From Caballeronia concitans (GTDB lineage Bacteria; Pseudomonadota; Gammaproteobacteria; Burkholderiales; Burkholderiaceae): a stretch of DNA of 64,000 nucleotides. Of this stretch, positions 3,850-43,959 are shown piece by piece. Below the pieces are notes generated by a model. The model made no database searches. It had not been told where the DNA came from and saw only the letters and a list, made by a program, of their open reading frames with translations. Numbering within the stretch: the first letter of the stretch is position 1; each line of letters starts with the position of its first letter. A program made the translations under genes and the position numbers. The stretch is taken from assembly GCF_001544615.1 (NCBI RefSeq), contig NZ_FCNV02000006.1, positions 209,843-273,842 on the forward strand, written 5' to 3'.

Positions 3850-4773
3850 ATGGACCGCTTCCTCGCAATGAAAGTGTTCGCGCGCGTCGTCGAATCGGGC
3901 AGTTTCTCGAAAGCCGCCGACGCGCTTCGCCTTCCGCCCGCGAGCGTGTCGCGCACGCTGCAGGCGCTCGAAGCGCATCTCGGCGCGCGGCTCCTGAACC
4001 GCACGACGCGCAGCATCAGCATCACCGAAGACGGCGAAGCCTATTACGAGCGATGCGTGCGCGTGCTCGGCGAAGTCGACGACATGGAAGCGTCGCTGTC
4101 GCATTCGAAGCTGAGTCCCAAGGGCAACGTGAAGGTCAGCCTGCCGCAAGTGATGGCGAAGAGCACCATCATTCCCGCGCTGCCTGAGTTCTTCGCGGCG
4201 TATCCGGATATCGGCGTCGAATTGCTGTTGACCGACCGCCAGGTGGATCTCGTCGAAGATGCGGTCGATTGCGTCGTGCGCGTCGGCGCGATCGGCGATG
4301 TCGGGCTGGTGGCGAAACGCATCGGCGCCTATACGCAGATCACGTGCGCATCGCCGGGATACATCGAACGATATGGCGAGCCGCACACGCTCGACGATCT
4401 CGACCGGCATCTCGCCGTCGGCTACGTGCTCAACAAGTCGGGGCGCGTGCGGAACTGGGAATTCGTCGTCGATGGCGAAGCGCGCAGCATCGCGCTCAAG
4501 CACAAGATCGCCGTCAACGATGGCGATTCATACATCGCATGCGGCCTCGCGGGACTCGGGCTGATCCAGAGTTCGAGCTACACGCTCGCGCCTTACCTGC
4601 AAAGCGGCGCGCTGCGGCGCGTGCTGACGGACTATCCGGCGCATCCGCGCGTGGTGTCGGTACTGTATGCGGCGAACCGGCATCAGCCGCGCCGCGTGCG
4701 CGTGTTCATCGACTGGGTCGCGGAGTTGTATGCGCGGTTGCCGGCGTTTCAGCAAGACGCGAAGGCGCAGTGA
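3850..4773 (+). CDS. LysR-family transcriptional regulator
   Basis: A 307-residue LysR-type regulator. The N-terminal winged helix reads MDRFLAMKVFARVVESGSFS and continues through SKAADALRLPPASVSRTLQA; the rest is the periplasmic-binding-like effector domain, with LLTDRQVDLVEDAVDCVVRVG typical of the CrgA/AaeR-like subgroup. Length is normal. It is convergent with the O-antigen genes that end at 4778, with only 4 bp between the stops. Nothing nearby on the opposite strand tells which gene it controls. Confidence 0.9.
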   Translation: MDRFLAMKVFARVVESGSFSKAADALRLPPASVSRTLQALEAHLGARLLNRTTRSISITEDGEAYYERCVRVLGEVDDMEASLSHSKLSPKGNVKVSLPQVMAKSTIIPALPEFFAAYPDIGVELLLTDRQVDLVEDAVDCVVRVGAIGDVGLVAKRIGAYTQITCASPGYIERYGEPHTLDDLDRHLAVGYVLNKSGRVRNWEFVVDGEARSIALKHKIAVNDGDSYIACGLAGLGLIQSSSYTLAPYLQSGALRRVLTDYPAHPRVVSVLYAANRHQPRRVRVFIDWVAELYARLPAFQQDAKAQ

Positions 4774-4777
4774 TACT

Positions 4778-6685
4778 TCAGCCCGCCGCCTCGCGTCCGG
4801 TCGCTGCGTTCGCTGCCTTGGCGACCTGCACGCTCTGCAATACAGGCGCGACAGCGGTCTGATATTCGGGCACCCAGCGGCGCAGATCGCGGCGCACTTC
4901 GTCGTCCGACAACACGCGATGCTGCATCAGCCAGGGCAATAGCTCGTCGATGAACGCATCCGGCACGCCCCGCGCCTGCGCGATCCGCAGCTTCGGATGC
5001 GGCGTGCGCGTGGTGGTTTCGTCGTCGGCAAGGAGTTCTTCGTAGAGCTTTTCGCCGGGACGCAAGCCCGTGAACACGATGCGAATCTGCTCTTCGCTAT
5101 AGCCGTAGAGCCGAATCAGGTCGCGCGCCAGATCGACGATCTTCACCGGCTGCCCCATGTCGAGAATGAAAATCTCGCCGCCCCGCCCCATGCTCGATGC
5201 CTGCAGCACGAGTTGCGCGGCCTCGGGAATGGTCATGAAGAAACGCGTAATTTCGGGATGCGTGACCGTGACAGGACCGCCCTTCGCGATCTGCTGCTGG
5301 AACTTCGGGATCACGCTGCCCGCGCTGCCGAGCACGTTGCCGAAGCGCACGGTCTCGAACTGCGTGCGCGGCGCGGTCTGCTGCAGCGCCTGACACGCCA
5401 TTTCCGCGAGACGCTTGCTCGCGCCCATCACGTTGGTCGGGTTGACGGCCTTGTCGGTGGAAATGAGCACGAAATGGCGGACGTCGTGACGAATGGCCGC
5501 ACGCGCGACGCGCAGCGTGCCGAGCACGTTGTTGCGCACGGCCTGCCACGCGTTCTGCTCCTCCATCAGCGGCACGTGCTTGTAGGCGGCGGCGTGGAAG
5601 ACGATATGCGGCGTGAAGCGCGCCATGGTCTGATCGAGCAGCAGCGAATCCTTCGCGTCGCCGACGACCGGCACCACCGACAACTCCGGAAACCTCTCGT
5701 GCAGCTCTTCGATCAGGCGATACATCGCGTATTCGCTGAGATCGTAGGCAATGAGTTGCGCCGGCGAAAAGCGCAGGATCTGGCGGCACAGCTCGGAGCC
5801 GATCGACCCGCCCGCGCCCGTCACCATGACGACGCGACCGTGCAGCAATTGCTCGACGTGCGGCATGTCGATCTTGACAGGCTCGCGGCCCAGCAGGTCT
5901 TCGAGGTCGATCTGCCGCACGCGCGACAGGAAACCGCCCTCGCCCTGCGTCAACTGATTGAGCGCGGGCAGCACCATCACCTTGACGCCCGCGCGCACGC
6001 ACAATGTGGCGACGCGGCGCTGTTCATCGACGGAAGCGGACGGAATTGCGATGATCGCGTAATCGGTCTTGTACTGCTCCGCGATCTTCGCCAAATCGCC
6101 GAACGAGCCGAGCACTTTGTGGCCGAGCACTTCGCGGCCTTGCTTGGAGGAATCGTCATCGAGCAGGCCGACGAGACGCCATTCCGACGAACGCGCCAGT
6201 TCGCGCGCGAGCATCGCGCCGGCCGTGCCCGCGCCGAGCACGATCACGGGCTTGCCCTGCCCGACCAGACCGCCATACAGATAAAACTCCTTCCCCGCGC
6301 GATACAGCGCACGCGCGCCGCCCATCGCGAGAAAGAGGAACAGCGGCTCGACGATCAGCACGGACCGCGGGATGACAGGAATCGGCTGCAGCAGCACCGC
6401 GCCGATCATCACGACGAGCGCGCCGACCACGACCGACTTCGAGATGCGCATCAGGTCCGGCAGGCTCGCGAACACCCACATGCCGCGATACAGCCCGAAC
6501 ACGCGGAACATCACGCCGTAGACGGGCAGCACCCAGATGAGCGCGACGAGCGCGCCGTGCTCGAACTCCGGCGGCACCGAACCGTTGAAGCGGATCAGGT
6601 AGGCGACGAGCCACGTCGCCGCCACCGAGAGAAGGTCGAAGGTGAAGGCGCCTGCGGAAAGCCACGAAGCCTTGAATCGAATCAT
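4778..6685 (-). CDS. WbpM/FlaA1-type nucleoside-diphosphate-sugar 4,6-dehydratase
   Basis: A membrane-anchored 635-residue enzyme that removes water from UDP-HexNAc, giving the 4-keto-6-deoxy intermediate for O-antigen amino sugars. Residues 1-130 hold about four membrane helices. A first Rossmann site GAGTAG (151-156) belongs to the CoA-binding-like domain, and the second, TGAGGSIG (289-296), binds NAD. The catalytic block is STDKAVNPTNVMGASKR, where the usual YxxxK tyrosine is Met420 with Lys424, as in WbpM. The frame runs open to 7345, but ATG 6685 follows GAGGTGT and overlaps the upstream stop as ATGA (6682-6685), so this is translational coupling, not a fusion. Confidence 0.93.
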   Translation of the reverse strand: MIRFKASWLSAGAFTFDLLSVAATWLVAYLIRFNGSVPPEFEHGALVALIWVLPVYGVMFRVFGLYRGMWVFASLPDLMRISKSVVVGALVVMIGAVLLQPIPVIPRSVLIVEPLFLFLAMGGARALYRAGKEFYLYGGLVGQGKPVIVLGAGTAGAMLARELARSSEWRLVGLLDDDSSKQGREVLGHKVLGSFGDLAKIAEQYKTDYAIIAIPSASVDEQRRVATLCVRAGVKVMVLPALNQLTQGEGGFLSRVRQIDLEDLLGREPVKIDMPHVEQLLHGRVVMVTGAGGSIGSELCRQILRFSPAQLIAYDLSEYAMYRLIEELHERFPELSVVPVVGDAKDSLLLDQTMARFTPHIVFHAAAYKHVPLMEEQNAWQAVRNNVLGTLRVARAAIRHDVRHFVLISTDKAVNPTNVMGASKRLAEMACQALQQTAPRTQFETVRFGNVLGSAGSVIPKFQQQIAKGGPVTVTHPEITRFFMTIPEAAQLVLQASSMGRGGEIFILDMGQPVKIVDLARDLIRLYGYSEEQIRIVFTGLRPGEKLYEELLADDETTTRTPHPKLRIAQARGVPDAFIDELLPWLMQHRVLSDDEVRRDLRRWVPEYQTAVAPVLQSVQVAKAANAATGREAAG

Positions 6686-7731
6686 CCGCGTACACCTCGA
6701 GATTGTTCGGATAGATGCGCCCGATGGCGCCGCCAGCTTGCATCGACGACGAGACCCGCCGCCACGAGCACGATGACCCACGTCGCGACCGCCGCCCACT
6801 GCCCCGCCGGCGACCACGCGAGCGCTCCGTTGGCGAGCGCGACGCCCGCGAGCATCAGCGCGTACCACGCGAGCGCGGTCCGCGCGTGGCCGGCGCCCAT
6901 CTGCACCATGCGTTGATAATAGTGCTCGCGATGCGCCTGCCAGAACTTCTCGCCGCGCGCGAGCCGCCGCAGCAGCGTGACGGACGCATCCGCGATGAAC
7001 GGCGCAAACACGAGCGCCGGGAACCACACCGGCCACGTACCTTTCAGCCAGCCCCAGTAACCGAATGCTCCTGCAAGGAATCCTAGGGGAATCGACCCCG
7101 AATCGCCTAGGAAAATCCGTGCCGGATGGAAATTGAAGAGCAGAAAGCCTGCCGCCGCCCCGGCGATCGCCGCGCTGGCGATGCCCAGATCGATTTGCGG
7201 CACCGGTCCCGAGAGCGCGGCGACGGCGTAACCGCCGAATCCGAACAGCGCCATGCCGCCCGCGAGGCCGTCGGAACCGTCCATGAAGTTGTAGAGATTG
7301 ACGAGCCAGACCATCAGGAAGCCGACGGCCACGAGCGCCCACCACGGCGCCGGCGCGGGATTCAGCGCAATCAACAGCGCGACCGCGACGACGTGCGCGC
7401 CGAAGCGCACGCGCGCGGGCAAGCCGCGACGGTCATCGATCTGCGATACGGCGGCGAGCGCGGCGGCGAGGAGCGCGGCGAGCCACATCGAGCGCGTGAG
7501 CATCAACATGGCGATGACGCCGACCGGCACGATGCCCCATCCGCCGACGCGCGGCGTGGGACGCGTGTGCAGAGAACGATCGTTCGGAATGTCCGTGGCG
7601 AGCCGCCAGGCAAGCCCGGTGCGCAGCAGCAGGAACAGGATCAGCGCGCACGCCGCCAGCGATGCCGCCGCGACGCACAGTGCGGCGATCCAAGGCGAAT
7701 CGACGACGAAGGGGGACAGCGGGGCACTCAT
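6682..7731 (-). CDS. WecA/WbpL-type polyprenyl-phosphate glycosyl-1-phosphate transferase
   Basis: Starts O-antigen synthesis by moving a HexNAc-1-phosphate (GlcNAc, QuiNAc or FucNAc type) to undecaprenyl phosphate at the inner membrane. The 349-residue protein is almost entirely membrane-spanning. It carries the family marks: DRSLHTRPTPRVGG (51-64), DD at 99-100, NLYNFMDGSDGLAG (145-158) and FLGDSGS (around 213). The gene overlaps the dehydratase by 4 bases, so the nucleotide-sugar enzyme and the priming transferase are made together. Sugar specificity cannot be read from the sequence; the dehydratase and epimerase neighbours favour a 6-deoxy-HexNAc. Confidence 0.93.
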   Translation of the reverse strand: MSAPLSPFVVDSPWIAALCVAAASLAACALILFLLLRTGLAWRLATDIPNDRSLHTRPTPRVGGWGIVPVGVIAMLMLTRSMWLAALLAAALAAVSQIDDRRGLPARVRFGAHVVAVALLIALNPAPAPWWALVAVGFLMVWLVNLYNFMDGSDGLAGGMALFGFGGYAVAALSGPVPQIDLGIASAAIAGAAAGFLLFNFHPARIFLGDSGSIPLGFLAGAFGYWGWLKGTWPVWFPALVFAPFIADASVTLLRRLARGEKFWQAHREHYYQRMVQMGAGHARTALAWYALMLAGVALANGALAWSPAGQWAAVATWVIVLVAAGLVVDASWRRHRAHLSEQSRGVRG

Positions 7732-9630: not shown

Positions 9631-10764
9631 CCTTAGCGACTGAGTTCTGAACGCGCCACCCTACTGTCGGACGACGCAGCCGACATTTTCCCTGAAATGA
9701 GCCGCGCGTAGGAAATAATCAAACGCGGCTAATGCCGGCGGGATGGATGCGCCGCCCCTGTCGAAGCCTGCGAACCTCGGTATTTCCCACAAGGTGCTCG
9801 TCTCGACGCTCTTCCAAACGTTAGTCAATTTTTCCGCGGGGCAGATGCTTGGGGAGCAAGCAGCGTATGAAGGTTGTGGCTATGGCAAACGCACGGCCTG
9901 CTCTCTCTGATTGGCATAACGCGACTTTCACCGCGTCACCATCACGTTGAAAGAACGACGTCTGCCTCGGAGCTCCGATGTAGAGGGACGATTCTGAACA
10001 GGTGGACCCAACTGTTCAGATGGCGCCGAAATAGGTTGACGTACCAAGTCCCTCGACGTACTCGCTGCTTCAACGTCATCTCTTTTTCGGATCCTTTATT
10101 GTCGATCACAGCGACCAATACACCTGGCATATTCCGGTCATTCTTTTCGCAATTGGCATCTTCCCGGACCAGCAAGATGCCGCAGGTTCTAGCATAAGGT
10201 AGCTCCGGTGCGGTGACCGGTACGCATCGCTTCCCCTTTCACGATGAAATTGCACGCACAATGACTCCATCACTGGTGCACCACAAAACCTCCTGCAATC
10301 AACGACGCGGACATGCGTCGTTGTTATCAGCGTTTAACGCCGCAGCCCGCGCTCTCTCTTTGCTCTTCTCTAATAGCGTGCAGCGCAAATCCGTTAAATT
10401 AATGCGCCTGCGACTTTTGGATGCTGCTTCCGCGAGGGCCTGCGGAGCCTGAGTGCTGCTGGACACACGCGTGCTATGACTCGCAGTTCCCAACGAAAAG
10501 GAGGAGCGACTGAGGATACGTCCGCGCGGACGCCACCGATTAGCTTTGTATTTGTCACGACCGATCGCGATCTGTTCAAGCAATTTAGCCGGGGAGGGCT
10601 GCTTGCCAGTAAGCCCGCTCATCCGATAGCATGATCCCGACTGCAGTGAGCGACATACTGGACAAGTCGATGGCGAGGCATGCGCGGCGCTAAACCCGAA
10701 ACGATCGTTATTCAATAACACACGTCACGTAAGCAGCAATGCCTAACGGCGACCCAATCGCACA
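9631..10764. other. Gene-poor spacer at the left edge of the island
   Basis: About 1.1 kb with only short open frames that lack ribosome-binding sites or recognisable domains. I see no RNA gene, insertion sequence or repeat. It marks the change from the O-antigen operon to accessory DNA. Confidence 0.5.
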
Positions 10765-11721
10765 CTACGCAGCCACTCGGGATATCTGAGACTTCACGTG
10801 TAGCCAGATTGATAACTGCCGTTCGAGATATTTGCGAAATTTGCTGTCGCCATTGCGTGCAAAGGTAGTAACTGTATTGGTTGTCGCATGCCGCCAATGG
10901 CCGAAAATAAGCACAGTGTCGTTTCGCTTGAGCGAATGCAACCATTCAGCTTGATTGGTCCATGCCGTGGCGTGCGCGAGTTCTCCTACCATCGGGTCAC
11001 GAGAATATGAGTGCACTGCAGACGACTTCATATGCAAAACATACAACGACCGACCATGTCTCTCGATAGTCTCAATATTGGCTACCGTGCCCACAAGCGT
11101 GACCGGAAAAGAAGTTGCAGTCTTACCGAGCCAACGATAGGCTGCGAGAAATCGCGCTTCCTCGTAATAGAAATCCTCCCAATTGACTGACATCCCATCG
11201 AAGACGAATTCGAGACGGTCTCTAAGACCGGAATTGCTCGCACACAAACTTCGAAGTTCTATCACTCGCTTCGCCGCGTTAATGTACGCCGACAGAAAAC
11301 GGCGGGAGTCGCTTGAAAAGAACGCACTGCCGTCTCCTGCCATATCGGCCTTGCGAGATATTTTCGGACGCTTTGAAAGCTTGTCCACGTCGCGTATATC
11401 AGCGATTGCGAGCAGACGAAAACGATATTGTCCGCGTTCGATGGCCTGCAAAAGACCGAACGAACGACGCGCAATGATTTTCAGTTGCTCCTCGACATTG
11501 AACATGCACCGCGTGTTATGCGCCACCTTCGGAAACAAGCGGAAATACGCCTTGACCGTGCAGGCTTTGCCCCGACTCTCGCGTGCGTGCTGCGGAACGT
11601 AACTGACGGGCGCGCTGCAATTCACACATCTCAACGGCGGAGGCTCTTGGAGAGAACCGATCGTCTCGGCGGAGACTTCTTGCCCATCCATTGTTCTAGC
11701 CACCCACATTCTTGCAGCCAT
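10765..11721 (-). CDS. Hypothetical protein with CoiA-like N-terminal zinc finger
   Basis: Not assigned to a known family with certainty. The 318-residue protein starts after a strong AAGGAGG site (start 11721 rather than 11790). Residues 32-35 are CVNC and 68-72 are HNTRC, which makes a likely Cys2-His-Cys zinc site laid out like the N-terminal finger of competence CoiA-like proteins found on mobile elements. The middle region (KLSKRPKISRK) is basic, and the C-terminal part has an OB-like pattern of alternating hydrophobic residues (VTLVGTVANIETIERHGRSL). It is the first of several minus-strand island genes with similar strong ribosome sites. DNA or RNA binding is inferred, not shown. Confidence 0.65.
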   Translation of the reverse strand: MAARMWVARTMDGQEVSAETIGSLQEPPPLRCVNCSAPVSYVPQHARESRGKACTVKAYFRLFPKVAHNTRCMFNVEEQLKIIARRSFGLLQAIERGQYRFRLLAIADIRDVDKLSKRPKISRKADMAGDGSAFFSSDSRRFLSAYINAAKRVIELRSLCASNSGLRDRLEFVFDGMSVNWEDFYYEEARFLAAYRWLGKTATSFPVTLVGTVANIETIERHGRSLYVLHMKSSAVHSYSRDPMVGELAHATAWTNQAEWLHSLKRNDTVLIFGHWRHATTNTVTTFARNGDSKFRKYLERQLSIWLHVKSQISRVAA

Positions 11722-12488: not shown

Positions 12489-12962
12489 TCACGTCGATTC
12501 GTGATCACCCGGAAAGCACATATGTCCGATGATGAACAGAGCCGCGGACGTGACGCAAAGCAACGCGGTTTCAACGATGACACCTGCGTCCCAGTCCTTG
12601 CTTGACTGAACGAGGTAGCACGCGCCGATCAACGAAAAGGCACTCAGCATATGGGCGAAGCGCCGGTTGAGTCGCCGTTGAGCGCGATTGGGAGTTGCGA
12701 CACTTTTCAGCGTCGTGACTAGACGCTCACCGAAAGGCAGCTTGGCCCCCACCGCAAATTCGCCGTCGGGGGCGCCTGTCACGCGATAGATGACGCCGTC
12801 TACCGAAACTCGAATCGACGTGCGGTGCTCTGTCTTTTCGAGCTCGGTAAGCATCGCGCTCAAGCGCGGCGGCAGCAAAATCCCGGATGACGCCTGAACG
12901 ACAACGCGGTCGGTCAGGATCAAGCCACCTGCATAGCGGACTTCTAGTACGGCGAGTTTCAT
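12489..12962 (-). CDS. Small hypothetical membrane protein of the island
   Basis: Unrecognised. The 157-residue reading starts at ATG 12962, directly behind AAGGAGGC; the frame is open further upstream to 13319, but that part lacks a start signal and looks low-complexity. Residues 1-95 are soluble and beta-rich (MKLAVLEVRYAGGLILTDRV). The C-terminal 60 residues contain two hydrophobic segments (FAHMLSAFSLIGACYLV and VIVETALLCVTSAALFIIG) separated by a short loop, so it is probably anchored in the inner membrane by a hairpin. It shares strand and ribosome-site style with the neighbouring island genes. Confidence 0.6.
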   Translation of the reverse strand: MKLAVLEVRYAGGLILTDRVVVQASSGILLPPRLSAMLTELEKTEHRTSIRVSVDGVIYRVTGAPDGEFAVGAKLPFGERLVTTLKSVATPNRAQRRLNRRFAHMLSAFSLIGACYLVQSSKDWDAGVIVETALLCVTSAALFIIGHMCFPGDHEST

Positions 12963-13650
12963 AAAGCCTCCTTGGCTAAGAAAGTAGCGGCCTTCGGCGG
13001 TTTGCCAGGCCAGACTACGGTGGTGAAATAGGACAGCGGTGGATCGTGCGCGACGCATAACTGATCGCGCAGCGAACCAGCGTGGCGCGCGAGATGCTGA
13101 AAACGGATGACGAGCAACGTCCTGCGACCACGGGTGCGCAGGGGTGGCCGTCGAACAGATAACTGTGTTGGTGCGAGACAACGGCTTCGTTCCGGCCGCA
13201 AGCGCGCTTGTCTTGCACGGAAACACGAAGGACGACGCGACGGGGGACCAGCGCTCGTTACAACGATGGGAAACGGTGGCGGGTCGCTCAATGAACTCGC
13301 GTGCGAGCCGGGACTGCAATTGCCCCGAGCCGCCAGGTATAAAAGGAGTGGCAAGCGCGCGTCAGCCGTGCGCTTGGCTAAGGTCGATGCGTGAATACGC
13401 GGTGGGTGCAACGAATATAGCGCGCCCATTGGAAGGTTTCCGCTCGAAAGCTTCGTAAAAACGGCGTCTTTCCAGTCTGATGGCGGATATCGATTTCACG
13501 GAGCGGGCAGCTCAGGCGGCGGTTGCCGTTCGAGCGCGATAGAGATCGGTGTGCCCGACGCTGCGCCACGGACAACGTTCGAGGGTTGGCTCCGGTTTAA
13601 CGTGGCGGGCGCGCTGCGATATAACGAAACAGCGATTCCGGGTACCGGTA
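12963..13650. other. Intergenic island DNA
   Basis: About 690 bp. No recognisable gene. A stretch at about 13380-13450 resembles 20963-21045 (shared GGTCGATGCGT, then ACGCGG, then GCGCCCA), a weak dispersed repeat. Confidence 0.45.
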
Positions 13651-14316
13651 TCACGGGCGCGAGCGCCCGCGAGAGCAAAGCCAGTCGATATGGCAAGCGA
13701 GGTTGTCCACATCTAAATAGCGCCGGTGCGTTGCGCGGAAGCGGTTCAACCTCGTGCGCACGAAGTAGTGCACGTCTGGCAAGGTCAAGACGCCATCCGG
13801 CACGGTCGGATGCAGGCTGCCGCCCGCTTCGCCTAGAACGGCGATACTCTCGACCGGACAGTCGTGCTGAGACAGCACCGACCGCAAATGCCGCACGGCC
13901 GGCTTCGCTCGGCGCAGCGGCGACGTATGAATCGTCACGTCGCCACGGTCATCGACGACGGCCAGTTCATCTTCGTTGGTTCCCGGTTTGACCAGGCCTG
14001 TCCAGTGGAGGTGGTTCACGACGAACACGCCAAACGGTGTGATCGCGAGGCAATCAACCTGCGTTGTTGGATTCTTGGTGCCCGGCGCGTGTTCGAGCTC
14101 GATTGCATGGCGCACATGCGCTCGGCCATCGCACGCATGCTGAAAGATCGGCGCAATGCGCATCAGCAACGCGCGGCTCACGCGTGGACGGTTTTTCGCT
14201 GCGTTGGTCGCGTCTTTCCTTGTCCTGCGGGAATGGCTGAAGGTTTCGTCAGCGGCGCTGGCCGTCTCGTTCGGTAGGTCGTGCGTCGGCATTCGGTCTT
14301 GGTCGTGCTTTCTCAT
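13651..14316 (-). CDS. NERD-like domain protein, paralogue 1 (catalytic residues missing)
   Basis: Unnamed island protein, 221 residues from ATG 14316; the frame is open to 14391 and the start is uncertain. The central part looks like a nuclease-related (NERD) domain: D88 in QVDCLAITPFGVFVV matches the family's first acidic residue. The next motif, normally E-x-K in FVIExK, is N101-H-L103, so nuclease activity is not expected. The C-terminal half (TSPLRRAKPAVRHLRSVL, then SIAVLGEAG and VHYFVRTRLNRF) matches the same blocks in the proteins at 15502 and 16256. The first 45 residues are basic and look disordered. A short dyad lies upstream (14345-14363). Function unknown. Confidence 0.65.
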   Translation of the reverse strand: MRKHDQDRMPTHDLPNETASAADETFSHSRRTRKDATNAAKNRPRVSRALLMRIAPIFQHACDGRAHVRHAIELEHAPGTKNPTTQVDCLAITPFGVFVVNHLHWTGLVKPGTNEDELAVVDDRGDVTIHTSPLRRAKPAVRHLRSVLSQHDCPVESIAVLGEAGGSLHPTVPDGVLTLPDVHYFVRTRLNRFRATHRRYLDVDNLACHIDWLCSRGRSRP

Positions 14317-14344
14317 TTGGTCTCTCGGCTTTCGTTGATGGGGG

Positions 14345-14363
14345 TGACTTCTAAGGGAAGTCA
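14345..14363. promoter_or_regulatory. Short dyad upstream of NERD-like paralogue 1
   Basis: TGACTTC (14345-14351) pairs with GAAGTCA (14357-14363) around TAAGG. It sits about 30 bp before the chosen start of the gene at 13651-14316, where an operator or a 5' leader hairpin would be placed. Chance occurrence cannot be excluded. Confidence 0.35.
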
Positions 14364-14518
14364 TCGCATGCCACTGCGATCTCATTTGCAAGTCAGGCCG
14401 CCAACCGCGCGGCCACCTCTGGCGGCATAGCTCGACCGAGCATCATTGAGTGAGGCGAGCGGTAATGGGCGAATAAGAAGGTGGGTAGGTTGCGCTACGA
14501 GAACACCGCCAGGCGAAC

Positions 14519-14962
14519 CTACGCGCATTGACACTCGTGCGGCTCGCTCTCCAGCAGCAAGCTTCGCAATGCCGCGATGCGTTGCTGCTGAGTTGGGATG
14601 AGGCAAGTCTTTTGCTTGATGCGCTCGAGCCGTGCGAGCCAATACGACTGAGGCAGGTAGGCATGTAAAGACGCGCCGTGCGCGCCAGCGACGTGACGAA
14701 TCACCGCTTCAAGATGTCGGATTTCGGCGTCCGCGCATCGTGCGGGCAGACGCACCGTTGGGGACGGGATGCTGAGGGCAGACGGACCTGTTGATCGAGG
14801 TAGGCCTTGCCGGAGGGGATGCTTGCGCGCTGCGTGCACTGGGGTGCGAGTGCGTTCGCGTTCGGACGTGTGTTCGATCGAACCGCGAGCATGGGTCGGC
14901 GCCGCTCGCTGGGCGGAATGCGCGCGGCAGGAACGTTTTTGTATTGGCATGTCTGCACTCAT
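14519..14962 (-). CDS. Small hypothetical protein, C-terminal half looks genuine
   Basis: Unrecognised 147-residue frame. The N-terminal 70 residues are Arg/Ser/Pro-rich and unconvincing. From about residue 75 the composition changes to that of a folded helical protein: IRHLEAVIRHVAGAHGASLH, then LPQSYWLARLERIKQ and QQQRIAALRSLLLESE. The true start may therefore be internal. No good ribosome-binding site is seen at 14962. It lies on the same strand as the NERD-like paralogues on both sides, which supports its being a small island gene. Confidence 0.4.
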   Translation of the reverse strand: MSADMPIQKRSCRAHSAQRAAPTHARGSIEHTSERERTRTPVHAARKHPLRQGLPRSTGPSALSIPSPTVRLPARCADAEIRHLEAVIRHVAGAHGASLHAYLPQSYWLARLERIKQKTCLIPTQQQRIAALRSLLLESEPHECQCA

Positions 14963-15501
14963 CTCGTTGGGACAAATCCAGCATGCCTGCTAGTTCACGA
15001 TGTCAAGGCATAGGGACGGCATGGGACCGGATTTCGGTCCCGGGGTTCGCCTCCAATACCTTCAGCCTGCGACGGCTCCGCCGCGCTCGGCGGTCGCCCA
15101 CGTGTATAAGACGTCGCTTTACCACCCGCGCCGGCGCAAGGTTGGTTTGCGCTTGCATGGAACTTTAGTTATCAGTCGACGCACCAGCCGTCATTACCAT
15201 TCGTAATCTAACTAACAAGTCCGCCAAAGCGATGTGTGGCGGCCCGTTCTAGCCATCTCCGTGATGCGAGTTTCGCCGACTAGCGCTCACGCTCAACACA
15301 AGAACAAAGCGTCGGTTGAGTCAAGTCGCCGCTGCGCGACGTTGGGGGTTACAACGCTACGGCACACTGGAGCGTCGCACGGAATCGCTCGCGAAACTTC
15401 AGGCGGAACCCTGCATTCGCCGCCAAACAGAATGACTTCACCGCTCGTGACGATGGAATGCGTCGGCGGAATCGAGTATTCGTTGGCGGGCCGCCACAGC
15501 C
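14963..15501. other. Intergenic island DNA
   Basis: About 540 bp between small island genes. No convincing gene, repeat or RNA is seen. Confidence 0.45.
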
Positions 15502-16155
15502 CTACTTGCAAGCGCTGAGCAGCAGGTCGGTCATTTCGGTGCGCTCAAAGTTCCAGCCCTTGCAATATGCTGCGTTCCGACGGATGCGGAAGAAGTGTCC
15601 GAGTTCCTTCGTCGTAACAAGCGACGTCGGCAGCCCGCGAACCAATGTGCAGCGCTCGTCGTCAAAGACGGCGAGCGCCTCAATCGAACCTGGGAAGTCG
15701 GCGAAAAGCGCTCGAAGGAAGCCCACCACCGCCATCGTGCATCTTAACGGCGATCGGTAACGGCGGATGCCGCCGGTTGCGTCTTGCACTATCAGACTAT
15801 GCTGATCTTCGCCGCGGCTGACGAAACCATCGCACTCCATCCGGCTGATGACAAACACACCAATGCCGGTCACCACCACGAAGTCTGCTTGAGCCACGGG
15901 ACCAGTCATCCCTTGCGACGTCATGACCGTAAGCTGTTGAACAATGTGGGCATGGTCAGCACCAAGCGATGACATGACATCGCCCAATTTTCTAGTGAAC
16001 GTTTCAATCTTTCGTTGTCGTTCCTGTAGCGTTGTATCGCTTGCGTTTCCCTTCGGTTGGCCGAGCAGGGCCCGCGTGGGGATGAAGGGCGCATCGTGCC
16101 AGTAACCACAGGTCGGGCATTGCTCTTGAATACTCGTCTTTCTAGATAGTGACAT
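15502..16155 (-). CDS. NERD-like domain protein, paralogue 2 (catalytic residues missing)
   Basis: A 217-residue paralogue of the proteins at 13651 and 16256. A CPTCG pair (C13, C16) at the N terminus suggests half of a zinc ribbon. The NERD-like core is QADFVVVTGIGVFVISR: D91 is kept, while the E-x-K site reads S104-R-M106. Shared downstream blocks are RSPLRCTMAVVGFLRALF, IEALAVFDDE and LGHFFRIRRNAAYCKG. The ATG at 16155 is preferred to an upstream TTG at 16206, though its ribosome site is weak. It lies about 100 bp after paralogue 3 on the same strand, so these two may be co-transcribed. Role unknown. Confidence 0.7.
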   Translation of the reverse strand: MSLSRKTSIQEQCPTCGYWHDAPFIPTRALLGQPKGNASDTTLQERQRKIETFTRKLGDVMSSLGADHAHIVQQLTVMTSQGMTGPVAQADFVVVTGIGVFVISRMECDGFVSRGEDQHSLIVQDATGGIRRYRSPLRCTMAVVGFLRALFADFPGSIEALAVFDDERCTLVRGLPTSLVTTKELGHFFRIRRNAAYCKGWNFERTEMTDLLLSACK

Positions 16156-16255
16156 GGGAGGTACTCGCTGGGTTGCAGAGTCTGTCGGATTCCGCCGTTG
16201 AAGCAATGAGGCCTTCTATTACGTGGCGGGCCGAGCTGATATGTGACAGCACGGG

Positions 16256-16900
16256 TCAATGCTTACCCTGCATTGGTCTGTTGCAACACGCTCGCAATCG
16301 CCGGTATATGCCTTCCGTATCGACTCGCCGATAGAAACCGCGCATCTGCTCTTCCTTAACTCTCAAGAAGTGCTGTAGCTCGCACAGCTTCAACATGTTG
16401 AGCGGGAGCGTCTTTGCGAGTTGACAGGCGGGGTTGTCAAAGATGGTGACGGCCTCGACGGGAAATGCCAAATCTCTGAGGACGAGCTTAAGCGCGCCCG
16501 CAACGGGGGTGGGATCTTGGTAGCTGAAAACTTCTCGATTGCCCAGTCCGTGGCTTGCGCCGAGTTCCCCACGCTGCTCGTCGCTGGTGATGAGTCCGCT
16601 GGCGCTGATGCGAGCAATGACGAACAGTCCGAAGGAGGTCACGAGGACGCTATCGGCGCGCATCACTGGAGTAGCAGACGGCCGACCTACAAACACGCTC
16701 AATTCCTCTTCCAGAACAAAGTCGTCTCTTAGGAGACGAAAGAGGATGCCGTTCAGGTGATGTGCGAAGTCAATGTAGCTGTGCCGTTTCGCAGTCAATT
16801 CGTCGAGGTTACCTAGATATCCCCGGTAACCAAGGCGTAAATGTATGGCCTTGGAGAGTTCGTCGCTTCTTTGGTGATCACAGTGCTCGCACACATGCAT
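16256..16900 (-). CDS. NERD-like domain protein, paralogue 3 (catalytic residues missing)
   Basis: A 214-residue protein with a strong AAGGAGG site before ATG 16900. The N terminus MHVCEHCDHQ carries a C-x2-C pair (C4, C7). The NERD-like core is RADSVLVTSFGLFVIAR: D83 is kept but the E-x-K site is A96-R-I98. The shared tail reads VEAVTIFDNPACQLAKTLP and LQHFLRVKEEQMRGFYRR. The conserved Asp with three different replacements of the E and K residues in the three paralogues indicates that the fold, not cleavage, is kept. It is the first gene of the minus-strand run 16900 to 13651. Confidence 0.72.
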   Translation of the reverse strand: MHVCEHCDHQRSDELSKAIHLRLGYRGYLGNLDELTAKRHSYIDFAHHLNGILFRLLRDDFVLEEELSVFVGRPSATPVMRADSVLVTSFGLFVIARISASGLITSDEQRGELGASHGLGNREVFSYQDPTPVAGALKLVLRDLAFPVEAVTIFDNPACQLAKTLPLNMLKLCELQHFLRVKEEQMRGFYRRVDTEGIYRRLRACCNRPMQGKH

Positions 16901-17142
16901 TGGTACTACCTCCTTTTTAGTCGTCCGCTACACCCCGTGATGAAACCGGGTGCAGCTCAGCACTGAAGATAGTAGAGGGCGTCAGTCGAGCGATTACGGA
17001 CAATGGTGACGAATTTAATATCTCTTTCCCTCACGCGACCATAATATCGATCGCAAAAAGGTGGTTTCCCACGAATGCGGCCTTTCGTCGATTTCGGTCG
17101 GTGTGGCCGAGCGACTATCGCCGGGACGCGGAAACCGTCGCC

Positions 17143-17734
17143 AGAGAGCGTTAAGCAGCACGGCCGGCATGTTGCGCGTTGTGTCTGTCGCCGGCCTTGC
17201 GGCGGTGGTGACATTCGACGTTGAACTCGAAGATCGTCGAGTGATGCACAAGCCGGTCGTGTTCCCCGACCCCGGCATGACGGTGGCCGCCATCGTCAGA
17301 AGACCTTTTCGCTCGTTCCTCTCAGCAATCAGCTCGAACAGAACGCTGGTCTTCAGCTGATCCTTGCGGGCGTACGAAAGATCGTCGAGGATGATCAAAT
17401 CAAAGCGATCGAGCTTGGCCAGCGCGGAAGGCAACTGCAGGCTCTGGCGCGCGGCCTGCAGTTTCTGGACGAGCTCGCTGGTACGCAGGAACAGCGCGCG
17501 GTAGCCGACGTCGATTGCGATTCAGTACGTGTCGTTCGATGCGTCGCTTCGCGCTTGGCGCTTGGCGCGTTCGGCCAGCTCGTGCTCATCCAGTGCGCCG
17601 AGCAGGCGTGTGGCCGGCAAGCCTTCCTTATCCGTGCGCTCGGCGAACTCACGCCATAACCTGCTGATCGTTGGCAAGCGTAGCTCGTTGAGCATCAGGG
17701 CCAGCCGGCCACCATCATGCGGGGGCGCGTTCAT
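17143..17734 (-). pseudogene. istB: Decayed IS21-family istB (transposition helper ATPase)
   Basis: Pieces of IstB are readable on the minus strand: the N terminus (LNELRLPTISRLWREFAERT, from ATG 17734), then a stop and loss of the Walker A region, then LVQKLQAARQSLQLPSALAK and DRFDLIILDDLSYARKDQ (Walker B), and a C-terminal piece HHSTIFEFNVE near 17225-17250. Between the last two, the expected piece VFPDPGMTVAAI is found on the plus strand at about 17250-17302, as if a 50-bp segment had been flipped. The start overlaps the end of the istA remnant as ATGA, the normal IS21 arrangement. It cannot make a working protein. Confidence 0.8.
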
Positions 17735-18125
17735 GGGGCCATCGCCCGGAGCAGTTTCTCATAGACGGCAACGGGCGGCATCTGAACCTCCACCTCAGGG
17801 CACCGGGCCTCACGGGGTGCGTACTGCTCACGAAGCGCTTTGAGATCGGGAAGCTCGCCGGCTCCGAGCAACGCATCATCCTGCCCGGCTGGTACCGCCT
17901 CCACGCCGTGCTGGCCTGTGAGCTCAAGCAGGCCGACCATCGTCTTGCATGCGTCGCGTTGTGACAGGCGGGCATCGAGTTATTCCCAGCTTCTGCGGTA
18001 CGCCTCGCGCGGGAACAGCGCGTCGCGAAACGCGAGCTCCTTCAATCCCTGGAGTTTGCGCTTTAGGGAGTCAATGAAGTGGCGGTAATCAAGCGCGTGG
18101 CGGTTGTCGTGCGCACGTGAGCCGC
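17731..18125 (-). pseudogene. istA: C-terminal remnant of IS21-family istA transposase
   Basis: Only the last roughly 130 residues of an IstA-type transposase remain: DYRHFIDSLKRKLQGLKELA and FRDALFPREAYRRSWE, an in-frame TAA, then LDARLSQRDACKTMVGLLEL and a tail ending LLRAMAP. The catalytic DDE region is absent; upstream (18130-18220) the frame is lost. The remnant overlaps istB by 4 bases and lies next to the foldback element at 18219-18683. Confidence 0.75.
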
Positions 18126-18218
18126 GAGCGGTGCTGTGGACAGAACGCCGGACACGTACAGTCGAGGCGATCGCCGTTGCACGCCTCAGCCGGTGGCCCC
18201 TCAGGCGCGCCCGCACAC

Positions 18219-18683
18219 CGCAAGTATTGCGGGCCCGACTTTTAGGGCGAGCAACGCTCTCCGGAGAGCGTCCCACTGCGTTGCCCGGGCAATTCAACCC
18301 GTTGATCCGTATAGGAAATCCGCTTGTTACAAAATGCGCCGGATATTCACACCCCCCTTATTCGGCTCACTTTTCGCCATGCGGAATGGCGGTTGCGCGG
18401 CATGGATCCGGCTGTTCATGGCGATTACAACGGCATGACACGCTGGAACAGGCGGCGGGCCTCGGTACTTTCGCCGCCAAAGGAAGTCGCCGACCGTTCC
18501 TCGCTTAACCGAGATCTCACAATGTAAAAAGTGTGCCGGATAAGGGGGATGTAAATATTCGGCACGTTTTCTAACGGGCCGATTTCCCATAGGAACCAAC
18601 GGGTTGCCATTTCCTGCACCGATGGTGGGACGCTCTCCGGAGAGCGTTACTCGACGCTAAAGTGCGGGCCCGCAGTGTTGCGC
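18219..18683. mobile_element. Foldback element made of two facing inverted copies
   Basis: Arms 18219-18370 and 18531-18683 are imperfect inverted copies of about 150 bp. Each holds the exact 18-bp palindrome ACGCTCTCCGGAGAGCGT (18254-18271 and 18630-18647), a CAACCCGTTG block, and a copy of the run read as CGGATAAGGGGGATGTAAAT on the right arm. The central 160 bp has no gene. It may be a pair of insertion-sequence ends facing each other or a nonautonomous foldback element. The adjoining IS21 remnant could be the source of the ends. Confidence 0.75.
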
Positions 18684-19116
18684 CGCTATGACAAGATCCA
18701 GTTGGCTAGACACGAAACACGTCGTCCGAAGCCGGCGCCGTCGAAGGTCCGGTCTGTCTTGGCTATGCTAGTCCACCCAAGTTTCTGGGCAGCGGACGTG
18801 GATGAGTGTAGTGACGAGGTAGTCGCACAGTTGCATCACCACAGTCGTCGCGGGTCGAAGAGGTTCGGACCCGCGCGATCGCATGGTCACCCTCGTCCCG
18901 GAAAAAGCGTGCACTTTGGCCGGGCAACTCGTGCGACTACCGCGAAAGACGACGAGCGACGCGGTGTAGGCTAGCGCACGGCGTCTGCCTCGCTTGCGCA
19001 GGGAATTGTTTCGATGACCGTTCATCGAAACAAGCGTCGACCCTCGACTTTCGCCCGATATGCGAAATCCGTCGCCACTGATGACGACTGCCATGTCGCC
19101 CATGGCGACGGTAACC
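18684..19116. other. Spacer between the foldback element and the recombinase
   Basis: About 430 bp without a convincing gene. A short stretch near 19050-19075 (CCGTCGCCA context) is similar to DNA near 17120-17140, so part of it may also be insertion-sequence debris. Confidence 0.4.
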
Positions 19117-20397
19117 CTATTCAGCAAGCAGTGAAAGCTGGTCCGGCGTGGCGTTGCTGATCGTCTGAGCCAACCGTGGCCCTTGGAGGAACTCGTTAGG
19201 CGCGGATGTTACCGGTGCTTCGATCTCGCCGGCGTTTGCAGGCGTAACAGTCGGCAAAGGACCGCCTTTTGCAAGTAACCGATAAAGCGCCTGCCTTGAA
19301 ATTCTCAGGCGCTTTGCGGCCTCTGATTTGACGCCGTTCGCCGCATCAAGAGCGGCGATCGCCTGCTCGAAGCTCACCACAGGTCGCGACAGGCGCTCCG
19401 CCGTCGCGAAGGTTGAGATGTAGGCTGTCGCCTTCGATGCCAGGCTATGCCCCGCGGCTTCGACCAGCTGTTGCATGGCCCTTTGGTGAAGTTCCGGATC
19501 GGGCCGATGATCAGGCAGTTTGATCGGTGCCGGCACCCCGGTTATAGCCTCGTACATCTTCTGGAGGTAAGCGTGGCGCAGTCCGTGAACCGTGACGCCC
19601 AAGCCACTACGCGTGATGCCCTCCTTCTGGAGAACGTGGTAGAAATGGCGGTACCACCGCTTGAGCGACCATGGCTCCGGAATCATTGAACCGGTGCGCG
19701 GATTCGCGAGCCTCGCTGCACGGATGAGGACTTCGTATTGCCATTCAGCATCGATCGGCACGAGCCGGGGCCTGCCGCCCTTCGTACCATCGATGACGTG
19801 CAAGTGGCCCGAAACGCGCAGGCATTGCAGTGGACGCAGAAGCATGCTTTCTTGCGCGCGCAAGCCGAACGTCGCTTGCAGTTCGACTTGAATGGCGACC
19901 CACCGATCATGCTCGCAGAGCCGGGAGATCACTTCGTTGACGTCAACGTTAGCCGCCTCCCAGGATTTATCTTCCTGCGCGACGTAATAGCGGCGATAAC
20001 CGTCGGGCCGCTTGATGTAGTCATCGACCGTGCCCACGAGCTGGTGCTTTTTCATCCAGGCGGCGAGCGTGCGCCAGTAGGTCAGTTTGTTTTCGACCGT
20101 GCCGGGCGCCTGGTCTTTTTCCGCGACCCAAAGCTTCACGAGAAACGCGATGTGCTTTTCGGAAAGGTTCCAAGGCGACTGTAGAGCGAAGCCGCCCTTT
20201 CGCAGTTCGCGAAAGCCGGCGATCAGATGCCGTACGCGATAGGTCTGCGTCTTGATGGAGATTGCGTTAGACGTGACGCGCGTCGTGCTGTGGGGTTTCG
20301 ATAGGTGCCGATTGAAGAGTTCGGCGAGCTCTTTGGTGAGCCGCTGAGGCAGCCCTGCATTGTCCAACAGGGGTAAAAAGTTGAATTGGATCTTCAT
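19117..20397 (-). CDS. Tyrosine recombinase with C-terminal Fis-type helix-turn-helix
   Basis: A 426-residue site-specific recombinase of the 'integrase domain-containing' group. An N-terminal core-binding region covers residues 50-130. The catalytic domain follows: R180 in ATFGLRAQES, H271 and R274 in HGLRHAYLQ, H317 in EAAGHSLASK, and the nucleophile Y326 in TAYIS. All key residues are present, so it should be active. Residues 345-380 (IAALDAANGVKSEAAKRLRI then SRQALYRLL) form a Fis-like helix-turn-helix, an unusual tail that may add DNA contacts. It sits at the right end of the 9.6-21.5 kb island and is the likely agent of its movement. Confidence 0.85.
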   Translation of the reverse strand: MKIQFNFLPLLDNAGLPQRLTKELAELFNRHLSKPHSTTRVTSNAISIKTQTYRVRHLIAGFRELRKGGFALQSPWNLSEKHIAFLVKLWVAEKDQAPGTVENKLTYWRTLAAWMKKHQLVGTVDDYIKRPDGYRRYYVAQEDKSWEAANVDVNEVISRLCEHDRWVAIQVELQATFGLRAQESMLLRPLQCLRVSGHLHVIDGTKGGRPRLVPIDAEWQYEVLIRAARLANPRTGSMIPEPWSLKRWYRHFYHVLQKEGITRSGLGVTVHGLRHAYLQKMYEAITGVPAPIKLPDHRPDPELHQRAMQQLVEAAGHSLASKATAYISTFATAERLSRPVVSFEQAIAALDAANGVKSEAAKRLRISRQALYRLLAKGGPLPTVTPANAGEIEAPVTSAPNEFLQGPRLAQTISNATPDQLSLLAE

Positions 20398-21463
20398 GAC
20401 CGTCGCATCAAAAGCGACGTTCTCACCTATCAGAAGAACGTCCCGGGTTGTTGGAATACTGCACGCTTTGCTTTCCGGGATCTTAGAGATCAGATTTTCG
20501 ATTCACCCGGCGCAGGGAAGCACTGCCGCCTGATGATCCATGCGCCGGACGAACCGATGCACGGCTACTTGACCGCAGGCGTAAGCCCGTCGAGCCAAGC
20601 AATTCCTTTTGCGCTTTTTGGTATCGGCAGCGCGAGCCGACAAAATGGGATATAGAAATCCGCACTCAGGGTGCAAGTGATTTCCCGTCTTGCGAGCTTG
20701 TTCATCACGATCGCCTCGATTTGGAACCGCGCGATTCAAGCTTGGCGAGAGTCGCCCTCGACGAAAGGCATAGGTGACGTTCGCACTGTCCGTGCGAAGT
20801 TGTTCTCAGACGATGCGAAACTGCGTTTCGCTTGGAAAGCCAATGCTAGCGCCGTTCTCGGAGCACTCAGTTTTCGGCACGGCGCACATGGCCAAGATCG
20901 CAGGGTCACTGCGCGGGCGAAGAAAGTAGCGTCCGTCGGACGCTGCGAGGACAGAGACGTAGTGCATTGCACTAGGGTCGATGCGTTGGAACGCGGATAG
21001 GTGAATAAGATGATGCGCCCAATCGCGCTCGAACGTTGGCGGAAAGCTTGCGATTTTGCTATCTCTTTCAGGCTTTTCCGTCAGACACCGGTCGGTCGAA
21101 CGTGACCGGTCCGGGCCGATCGGCCGATCGTCATGGATACGTCGCGAAGCGTCCCGAACCGGTTCTCAAATGCGACTGCAGACATGACCGTCCACCGGCG
21201 ATTTGGTAGCAACTAAGTACGTGCGTCTGGGGTTTTGTCTCTACATCAGGGAAGCGGGCGCAGTGGCGCAGTCGCACTCCGCGTTACTGCGCTGCGTGGA
21301 GCCAAATCCGTTTGAGCCAACGGCTCGGTTTGGATCCGTCCCTTCCGGAACCTTTACGTAATCTCCTCTACGCAACAGTAGTGTGATGCGTGAAATTAAG
21401 GCAGACTGTCGCGTCTTTTGCTCGCCTGACTTGATAATACTATCCCGCTGATCACTGCCCGAA
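20398..21463. other. Gene-poor spacer at the right edge of the island
   Basis: About 1.07 kb. Short frames do not look like proteins. A palindrome CGATCGGCCGATCG occurs near 21117-21130. If the recombinase uses a nearby attachment site, it should lie here. No tRNA gene is seen. Confidence 0.45.
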
Positions 21464-42626: not shown

Positions 42627-43959
42627 GTGGCTGTTTTTGTATTGGACCGAAAATGTCAGCCGTTGATGCCATGCAGCGAAAAACGCGCAAGGTTATTGCT
42701 CGTGCGCGGCCGCGCACATGTACATCGCGTGATGCCATTTGTCATCCGGCTCATGGACCGCGAAAGAGTCACGAGCCAGTTGCAGCCATTGCGTGTCAAA
42801 CTCGACCCGGGCAGCAAAGTCACCGGGCTCGCGCTCACACGCGACAGTGAGACGGTTCACACGGCGACCGGCGAGCTTCATCGCGGCGCGGCCGTGCTTA
42901 ACCTGTTCGCTCTTGTTCACCGCGGTCGGCAAATCAGTGAAGCTCTAACGGCCCGCCGAGCGATGCGTCGGTGGCGCCGCGGCAAGCTGCGTTACCGTTC
43001 GCCGCGCTTTTTAAATCGTTCGCGGTCTCCCGGCTGGCTCCCACCGTCCCTCCAACATCGGGTCGATACCACGATGGCGTGGGTGAAGCGCATCATGCGG
43101 TGGGCACCGGTAGTGGCGCTATCAAGCGAACTGGTCCGCTTCGACATGCAACGCTTGGAGAACCCGGAAGTCAGCGGCGTCGGATATCAGCAGGGCACCT
43201 TGGCAGGCTATGAAATCCGTGAATACTTGCTGGAGAAGTGGGGCCGGCATTGCGCCTACTGCGACGCGAAAAACACTCCGTCAGTTAGAGCACATCGTGG
43301 CTAAGTCTCGCGGTGGCAGCGACCGTGTGTCCAATCTAACGCTGGCCTGCGAGCCTTGCAATAGGGCGAAAGGCGCGCTGCCCATTGAAGAGTTTTTGGC
43401 CAAGCGGCCGACGCGGCTCGCGCGTATTCTGGCTCAATCAAAGCGTCCGCTGAAGGACGCGGCAGCGGTGAACGCGACGCGATGGGCGTTGAGCAACGCA
43501 CTGAAGGCAACCGGTATGCCATTGGAGCTTGCGTCAGGCGGACGCACCAAGTTCAACCGGGTGGCACTGGGTGTACCGAAAACGCATGCCCTCGATGCCG
43601 CTTGTGTCGGCGCACTGTCTGGGCTGACCCACTGGAAGCGGCCCACACTTTCAGTGAGCTGCACCGGCCGCGGCAGTTATCAGCGCACGCGACTTGACAG
43701 GTATGGCTTCCCGCGGGGCTATATGACACGGACAAAGCGCGTGCACGGCTTCCAAACTGGCGACATCGTGCGCGCTGAAGTACCGACCGGCAAACGGGCC
43801 GGCACGCACGTAGGCCGGGTAGCGATTCGCGTCAGTGGGAGCTTCAACATTCAGAAGGCCAGCATTGTGGTGCAAGGCGTGGCGCATCGTCACTGCCAGT
43901 TGATCCAACGAAGCGACGGCTACGGATACGCAACGATCCCTTTTCCCGAAAGAACCTAA
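42627..43959 (+). pseudogene. iscB: IscB RNA-guided nuclease (OMEGA), one frameshift in the HNH domain
   Basis: Reads MAVFVLDRKCQPLMPCSEKR from GTG 42627, behind AGCGGAG: the PLMP domain of IscB. Then RuvC-I (D60 in VKLDPGSKVTGLAL), the arginine-rich bridge helix (RRAMRRWRRGKLRYRSPRF), RuvC-II (E168 in ALSSELVRF) and the HNH start HCAYCDAKNTP. At 43281 one extra T (or two lost bases) shifts the frame; the next frame continues QLEHIVAKSRGGSDRVSNLT, CEPCNRAKG, then RuvC-III KTHALDAACVGA and a basic C-terminal domain ending at 43959. Repaired, it would be about 443 residues, a normal IscB. No transposase is nearby. A sequencing error is possible. Confidence 0.9.

Follow-up and report, generated by a model that had tools for sequence, protein, structure and literature searches.

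Three NERD relatives lacking nuclease residues lie in a plasmid-related, integrase-linked chromosomal module of Caballeronia

The window analyzed here is a 64,000-nucleotide stretch of the Caballeronia concitans genome (assembly GCF_001544615.1, contig NZ_FCNV02000006.1, positions 209,843 to 273,842 of the forward strand), and window coordinates are counted from its first nucleotide. Judged by their sequences, three neighboring genes within it encode relatives of the NERD domain that lack the residues expected of a nuclease. An initial annotation of the window had proposed that these genes are tandem, diverged paralogues maintained by selection for binding, and the three open reading frames (ORFs) are present where it placed them:

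13651 to 14316, minus strand: NERD_A (P0001), pseudo-nuclease with N-H-L where E-x-K stood
15502 to 16155, minus strand: NERD_B copy 1 (P0002), pseudo-nuclease with S-R-M where E-x-K stood and an N-terminal CxxC
16256 to 16900, minus strand: NERD_B copy 2 (P0003, “NERD_C”), pseudo-nuclease with A-R-I where E-x-K stood and an N-terminal CxxC

The proteins are indeed diverged paralogues: Smith-Waterman comparisons gave z values of 19-30 with local identities of 23-29%, and 0 of 1000 shuffles reached the observed score for each of the three pairs. Their proposed NERD-like character was borne out. P0001 scores well above the cut-off of 22.1 bits for the Pfam NERD family (PF08378), reaching 39.3 bits; P0002 is borderline, with 21.4 bits for the protein and 22.9 bits in a six-frame search; and P0003, which has no direct Pfam match, joins the family through profile-profile comparison only. 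In that comparison (hhalign), a profile of P0003 and its one ortholog matched ten catalytic NERDs with a probability of 96.8 (E 3e-10) and the NERD_B set with a probability of 99.0 (E 3e-18), compared with 0.2 for P0003 against an unrelated control profile. Within the source genome the NERD model matches P0001 and P0002 only, and a P0002 query matches only P0001-P0003. Searches by sequence for a relative in the PDB found none up to an E value of 1. A phage origin was considered and rejected, as P0002 has no match in the phage collection and none of the three has a PHROG. The genes are neighbors, as annotated, but P0001 and P0002 are not strictly in tandem because the unrelated gene c2 (14519-14962) lies between them.

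An active PD-(D/E)xK nuclease carries D plus E-x-K. In all three window proteins the D is present (residues 88, 91 and 83 of P0001, P0002 and P0003, respectively) and the E and K are gone, the alignment giving the same replacements as had been annotated. The CxxC motif is found in two proteins, as annotated, but it was rejected as a family trait since, among aligned rows, it is confined to P0002, P0003 and their orthologs in locus L055 of genome G038, the closest relative of the window (G and L numbers denote genomes and loci or stretches, respectively). The HFxR block described for all three holds for two; P0001 reads YFVR.

To place these replacements among other copies, catalytic columns were counted over 66 distinct aligned sequences scoring at least 180 bits. 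E-x-K is present in 31 copies, every one of which also has D and Q. Both E and K are gone in the other 35 (18 NERD_A-like, 13 NERD_B or C and 4 NERD_D), which comprise all 27 copies at this score from the gene module described below, the 4 NERD_D copies and 4 further NERD_A-like copies. Fifteen pieces below 180 bits were excluded. They include a dead piece in G001 (L119), a D-x-K piece (L115) and, on chromosome 1 of P. xenovorans, an interrupted copy with E-x-K that neighbors a dead NERD_A (L052). Retention of D, correctly annotated for the window, does not extend to the wider set, where only 8 of the 18 distinct NERD_A-like copies keep it (the rest have H, G, Q or E) versus 17 of 17 other E/K-less copies. 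One could suppose that the catalytic residues have migrated and that the proteins still cut: moved residues are mentioned for some pseudoenzymes (PMC10211241), and D replaces E in five NERD_A-like copies. K, however, is found in none of the 35, and the more variable columns include D in clade A as well as E and Q in clade B + C, which makes continued cutting very unlikely. More specifically, D ranks at the 90th percentile of column variability in clade A, where W is invariant, and the reverse holds in clade B + C, such that the two types keep complementary remnants (W is retained and D variable in NERD_A, D retained and W variable in NERD_B).

In an unrooted tree of 36 rows, with two long-branch joins flagged, the ten E-x-K rows are separated from all others by a strongly supported branch (100/99). 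A single loss followed by drift therefore suffices, and the proposal that the site was lost in three different ways, understood as separate events, did not stand.

The three genes belong to a recurrent module whose full order is tyrosine integrase (INT), NERD_B, a ParB helix-turn-helix (HTH) protein, c2, NERD_A, c3 and c4. Its other members in the window are:

19117 to 20397, minus strand: INT, tyrosine recombinase with Integrase_1 and a Fis-type HTH; presumed catalytic residues present
14519 to 14962, minus strand: c2, small conserved protein between P0001 and P0002
12489 to 12962, minus strand: c3, start codon set at 12962, two hydrophobic C-terminal stretches (by eye), plasmid paralogue
10765 to 11721, minus strand: c4, zinc-ribbon-like (by eye) with a conserved CxxC, H and C, match to phrog_7195 (function unknown)

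A profile of P0001-P0003 has matches in 32 of 58 Caballeronia genomes, and we refer to the 14 whose matches include a complete NERD_A as module genomes. In the test that the initial annotation had suggested, relatives of the trio were found to recur with the genes at 10765 (c4) and 12489 (c3), in these 14 of 58 genomes; the gene set it named did recur, but the integrase, c2, the plasmid paralogues and a shared DNA element had been overlooked. NERD_A, c2 and c3 are each present in 14/14 module genomes, and INT is present in all 12 where the contig or stretch reaches its place (for G039 the reading covers just the end of INT, and in G001 INT is on another contig, together with NERD_B and ParB). 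NERD_B was found in 11 of 13 module genomes, being absent from G039 and G057, with G004 left out because it cannot be judged; NERD_A and NERD_B thus occur together in 11 of the 13 judged. The ParB gene is complete in 10/14, cut short in G004 and absent from G000 (the window), G038 and G057, and c4 is a single frame in 10 module genomes, interrupted in 3 of 13 judged (G053, G001 and G054) and cut by the contig end in G057. A further gene, c7, lies beyond c4 in five loci and is broken in one. The window and its closest relative both carry two NERD_B copies and no ParB gene. Among the 12 module genomes with INT, 10 have NERD_B as the conserved gene that comes next after it; in NERD_D loci this place is taken by NERD_D (4/4). 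Named relatives come from Caballeronia, Paraburkholderia and strains labelled Burkholderia, and in a family-wide sample the pseudo-NERD profile, whose matches include E-x-K copies, was found in 53 of 398 genomes and 4 of 25 genera. We call the module chromosomal because it is on contigs of ~3 Mb in G034, G038 and G039. In L063 and L066 a PIN-domain gene flanks the module on its INT side, whereas L064 and L067 have one on the c7 side.

The module lies inside a polysaccharide gene region and its presence is patchy, in agreement with the island-like setting first suggested for it. Ten flanking proteins were tested: five, from five loci, match acyltransferase, glycosyltransferase (two), sugar dehydrogenase and O-antigen ligase families, and the other five gave one methyltransferase, one transposase and three without a match. 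Random mobility was rejected, as the module is 23-40 kb from pyrB in 8/8 genomes with both on one contig (module ends entered by hand). On a pyrB tree of 50 genomes (55 have a match) the presence of the module is patchy by eye, and NERD_A distances track those of pyrB weakly (Mantel r 0.28, with 35 of 2000 permutations as high). The module genome G034 and its close relative G022 are 93.6% identical on the left side until ~5 kb before the module; ~2.2 kb in G022 then corresponds to ~20 kb, including the module, in G034, followed by a 3.5-kb stretch at 75.5% and short matches below 73%. No clean insertion with an empty site was found in this comparison, two flank searches failed to pair, and G057 and G009 show partial similarity only. 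The G034/G022 comparison indicates that a larger piece, with ends that do not match site X (see below), may have been gained or lost. The patchy presence, the weak tracking of pyrB and the G034/G022 difference suggest gain, loss or exchange of the module along with parts of the variable surface-polysaccharide region. At the c4 end, a segment of ~336 bp between c4 and the glycosyltransferase gene c8 in L057 (~4265-4602) is inverted relative to L056 and L058; no long inverted repeat was found at its ends, and it is a possible invertible element. Downstream of c4, ~96 bp without an obvious gene are conserved in six loci (L056:4183-4278, L055, L057, L058, L061 and window ~10437-10532). Elsewhere in the window, two overlapping ORFs at 42627-43959 seem to be one gene in two frames, presumably encoding an HNH-type endonuclease.

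The 11 aligned module INTs contain the tyrosine recombinase signature (FGLRAQES, GTKGG, HGLRH, GHS and AYIS), in which we take R, K, H-x-x-R-H, H and Y to be the catalytic residues. In L069, a shortened integrase paralogue (INT3; 6273-7298, plus strand) that lacks the HxxRH and GH histidines adjoins INT2 and NERD_D and, going by its residues, is a pseudo-integrase beside a pseudo-nuclease. Between NERD_C and INT in the window (16957-19100) there are long inverted repeats, and an ORF piece at 17015-17434 that presumably resembles IstB of IS21. The ParB HTH domain PF17762 scores 27.5 and 31.3 bits (cut-off 22.6) in the two relatives' proteins tested; the full ParB/RepB/Spo0J profile TIGR00180 gave 28.4 bits, below its cut-off of 58.45, and covered the HTH part only. 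For the L055 ortholog of c2, searches of Pfam, PHROG and NCBIfam gave nothing significant, and no transfer genes were recognized among the module proteins. Could the module serve the polysaccharide locus in defense or conflict, with dead NERDs as its sensors of invading DNA? For BREX-related systems, a nucleotide-sensing role has been proposed for inactive domains with a restriction-enzyme fold (PMC12839542), and NERD occurs in defense systems (PMC10853773). However, PADLOC models matched none of NERD, c2, c3, c4 or ParB up to E 0.1, the only two matches in the module (both integrase) were weak and partial, and no effector is recognizable among its genes, leaving a defense role very doubtful.

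The claim that the ORFs stay open under purifying selection was upheld, weakly so for P0001 and P0003. We estimated omega by the Nei-Gojobori method, among at most the ten closest pairs per gene and, for NERD_A and NERD_B, from pairs with dS > 0.15. Omega is 0.08-0.12 for NERD_B pairs, 0.20-0.38 for NERD_A pairs and 0.03-0.10 for INT. Against L055, omega is 0.49 for P0001, 0.36 for P0002 and 0.50 for P0003 (95% upper limits 0.98, 0.60 and 0.94), with 19, 1 and 16 of 1000 bootstraps, respectively, at omega >= 1; the window copies are therefore kept, P0001 and P0003 loosely. These values bear on whether the module is a degenerating remnant of a plasmid that now has no function, its NERD copies drifting. 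Values near 0.5 for P0001 and P0003 would fit such decay, as would the broken c4 genes (3 of 13 judged), the loss of ParB in 3/14 genomes and its shortening in one more, the patchy occurrence in the genus and the transposase gene beside the module in L056. Yet NERD_A is a single open frame in 14/14 module genomes, omega is ~0.1 or lower for NERD_B and INT, and sites X and Y are conserved. We regard simple decay as unlikely.

Among 72,556 plasmid records, 29 contain a relative of an E-x-K NERD (Burkholderia 14, Paraburkholderia 9, Caballeronia 4 and Robbsia 2; E-x-K was read in a subset of the 29), and INT relatives are found in 173. In at least 24 of the 29, NERD and a paralogous Fis-HTH integrase are on the same plasmid (23 among the 30 matches listed, the 24th via annotation). 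Plasmid p3 of Caballeronia sp. Lep1P3, for example, contains an integrase, PRTRC genes, ssb, primase, NERD, an FlhC-family regulator and type IV secretion genes, and PRTRC genes are on all three plasmids viewed. Paralogues of c3 and c7 are also plasmid-borne (E 7e-26 and 1e-7), and searches of p3 104000-191412 and stretches L152 and L076 gave no paralogue of ParB, c2 or c4 at E < 0.5. By these homologies, the integrase, NERD, c3 and c7 of the module share ancestry with a large Burkholderiaceae plasmid backbone. In G039 and G034 the module is on a ~3.1 Mb contig and an E-x-K copy is on a separate, plasmid-sized contig. The paralogy with plasmid genes, and a composite DNA element common to both, would suit pseudo-NERDs that act as decoys, disturbing either an incoming plasmid's active NERD or the operators it shares with the module, and so serve in incompatibility or plasmid control. 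E-x-K copies are nevertheless not avoided, being co-resident in 5 of 14 module genomes versus 13 of 44 others (Fisher p 0.74; genome sets assembled by hand). On these counts plasmid exclusion by the module was rejected, and we find the decoy explanation quite unlikely.

The shared element and a nearby repeat lie at three places in the window:

20977 to 21069, plus strand: site X, box1 + box2 composite, outermost part of the conserved block upstream of INT
13383 to 13473, plus strand: site Y, another such composite, lying between NERD_A and c3 and oriented like X
20624 to 20640, minus strand: inverted repeat TCGGCTCGCGCTGCCGA, ~230 nt upstream of INT

Box1 is GTCGATGCGT(N3-6)RCGCGG and box2 is GAAAGC(N15-17)CTTTC, together spanning ~92 bp. 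With up to two mismatches allowed per box, the element is at X in 11/11 and at Y in 14/14 module genomes whose stretch covers the place, and also in NERD_D loci and on plasmids; the matches at X, on plasmids and in NERD_D loci are partly by construction because the pattern was drawn from those examples. The identical scan found none in reversed sequences or in one base-shuffle per stretch (896,068 bases). Plasmid p3 has five composite sites, all in one orientation and either intergenic (with respect to the genes listed, the p3 gene table being incomplete) or overlapping a gene end by two bases, including places upstream of NERD, PRTRC D and PRTRC ParB. The composite sites look like a plasmid operator set, for which KorA/KorB is the comparison, and box2 resembles a recombinase core too. 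Homology between module loci often stops at or near box2, but some locus pairs stay homologous past it, and the break in L056 adjoins a transposase gene. Because box2 recurs upstream of plasmid operons, it was rejected as the sole end of an element and may be either an operator or a recombination site. L057 and L059 have a second, partial copy, and a piece of the block is repeated in L060. The sequence TCGGCWCGCGCWGCCGA has the inverted repeat at 20624-20640 as its sole exact match in the genome, where with 2 mismatches allowed it is no commoner than its control. It is conceivable that INT with X and Y constitutes a working, plasmid-derived recombination system that joins or reshuffles polysaccharide blocks, with NERD_A and NERD_B as its architectural DNA-binding subunits. 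We give this version only a small chance; if true, nucleases would have been converted into integrase accessory factors.

An envelope role like that of Staphylococcus aureus SmdA is possible because SmdA, the sole tested NERD protein we found, acts at the membrane without several conserved NERD residues and is required for cell morphology (PMC9040797). The hydrophobic C-terminal stretches of c3 and the surface-polysaccharide genes of the locus would fit. The window proteins, however, have no N-terminal hydrophobic stretch by eye, unlike several E-x-K copies, and their association with INT and plasmid genes suggests a DNA-related role, making this the least likely of the explanations considered.

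The best overall explanation, to which we assign a probability of roughly 45%, is that a dead NERD_A and a duplicated NERD_B act without cutting in a plasmid-related chromosomal module. Its descriptive part (homology, E-x-K loss, gene order, plasmid paralogues, shared element, selection and polysaccharide location) we hold with high confidence, and the non-cleaving, binding-subunit mechanism is tentative. In this mechanism, the proteins are predicted to retain the NERD fold and to function without cutting, binding DNA ends or partners as subunits. NERD_A would probably pair with NERD_B, and the pair may be coupled to the module integrase and to sites X and Y, with a role in recombination, maintenance or regulation of the module. 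Several points weigh against this explanation. The constraint on P0001 and P0003 is weak, with upper limits of omega barely below 1; in the window and its closest relative the ParB gene is lacking, so a loss of module function may be under way there; and the contrast between plasmid and chromosome is not absolute, given the interrupted E-x-K copy on P. xenovorans chromosome 1. No excised state was found, module-type c3 (> 250 bits) occurring only in the 14 NERD_A genomes, and NERD function is hardly known in any organism (PMC9040797).

The roles of the NERD domain are almost unknown, and dead and E-x-K copies coexist in 5 of 58 Caballeronia genomes. With the shared element and the linked integrase, these coexisting copies therefore offer a natural contrast for NERD roles besides cutting, and the module ties plasmid-type genes to a variable surface-polysaccharide region. 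No title or abstract start in our literature search, which left subscription papers mostly outside, describes this module, and a search for NERD, plasmid and Burkholderia found nothing.

Parts of the module resemble known systems. We know of no link between SmdA and an integrase or plasmid. SmdA is, like the window proteins, NERD-like without conserved NERD residues, and it has a tested morphology phenotype; it differs from them in being a single conserved membrane protein (PMC9040797). Dead PD-(D/E)xK domains of BREX-related helicases are likewise proposed to bind and not to cut, but those domains are helicase parts in defense (PMC12839542), whereas the window NERDs adjoin an integrase. The module could also be compared with SGI1 and its IncC helper plasmid (PMC10954446); from SGI1 it differs in having no identified relaxase or observed excised state. 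SGI1 is a defined mobilizable element. Like the module, it is chromosomal and uses the control and stability machinery of a plasmid family. A further comparison is with plasmid NERDs such as that of Lep1P3 p3, which are homologous to the window copies across the NERD domain, have the composite element upstream on p3 and, in 24 or more of the 29 records, share their plasmid with an integrase of the paralogous Fis-HTH type. Those read keep D, E-x-K and Q, whereas the window copies lack E-x-K, are chromosomal and duplicated, and are the next conserved genes after INT.

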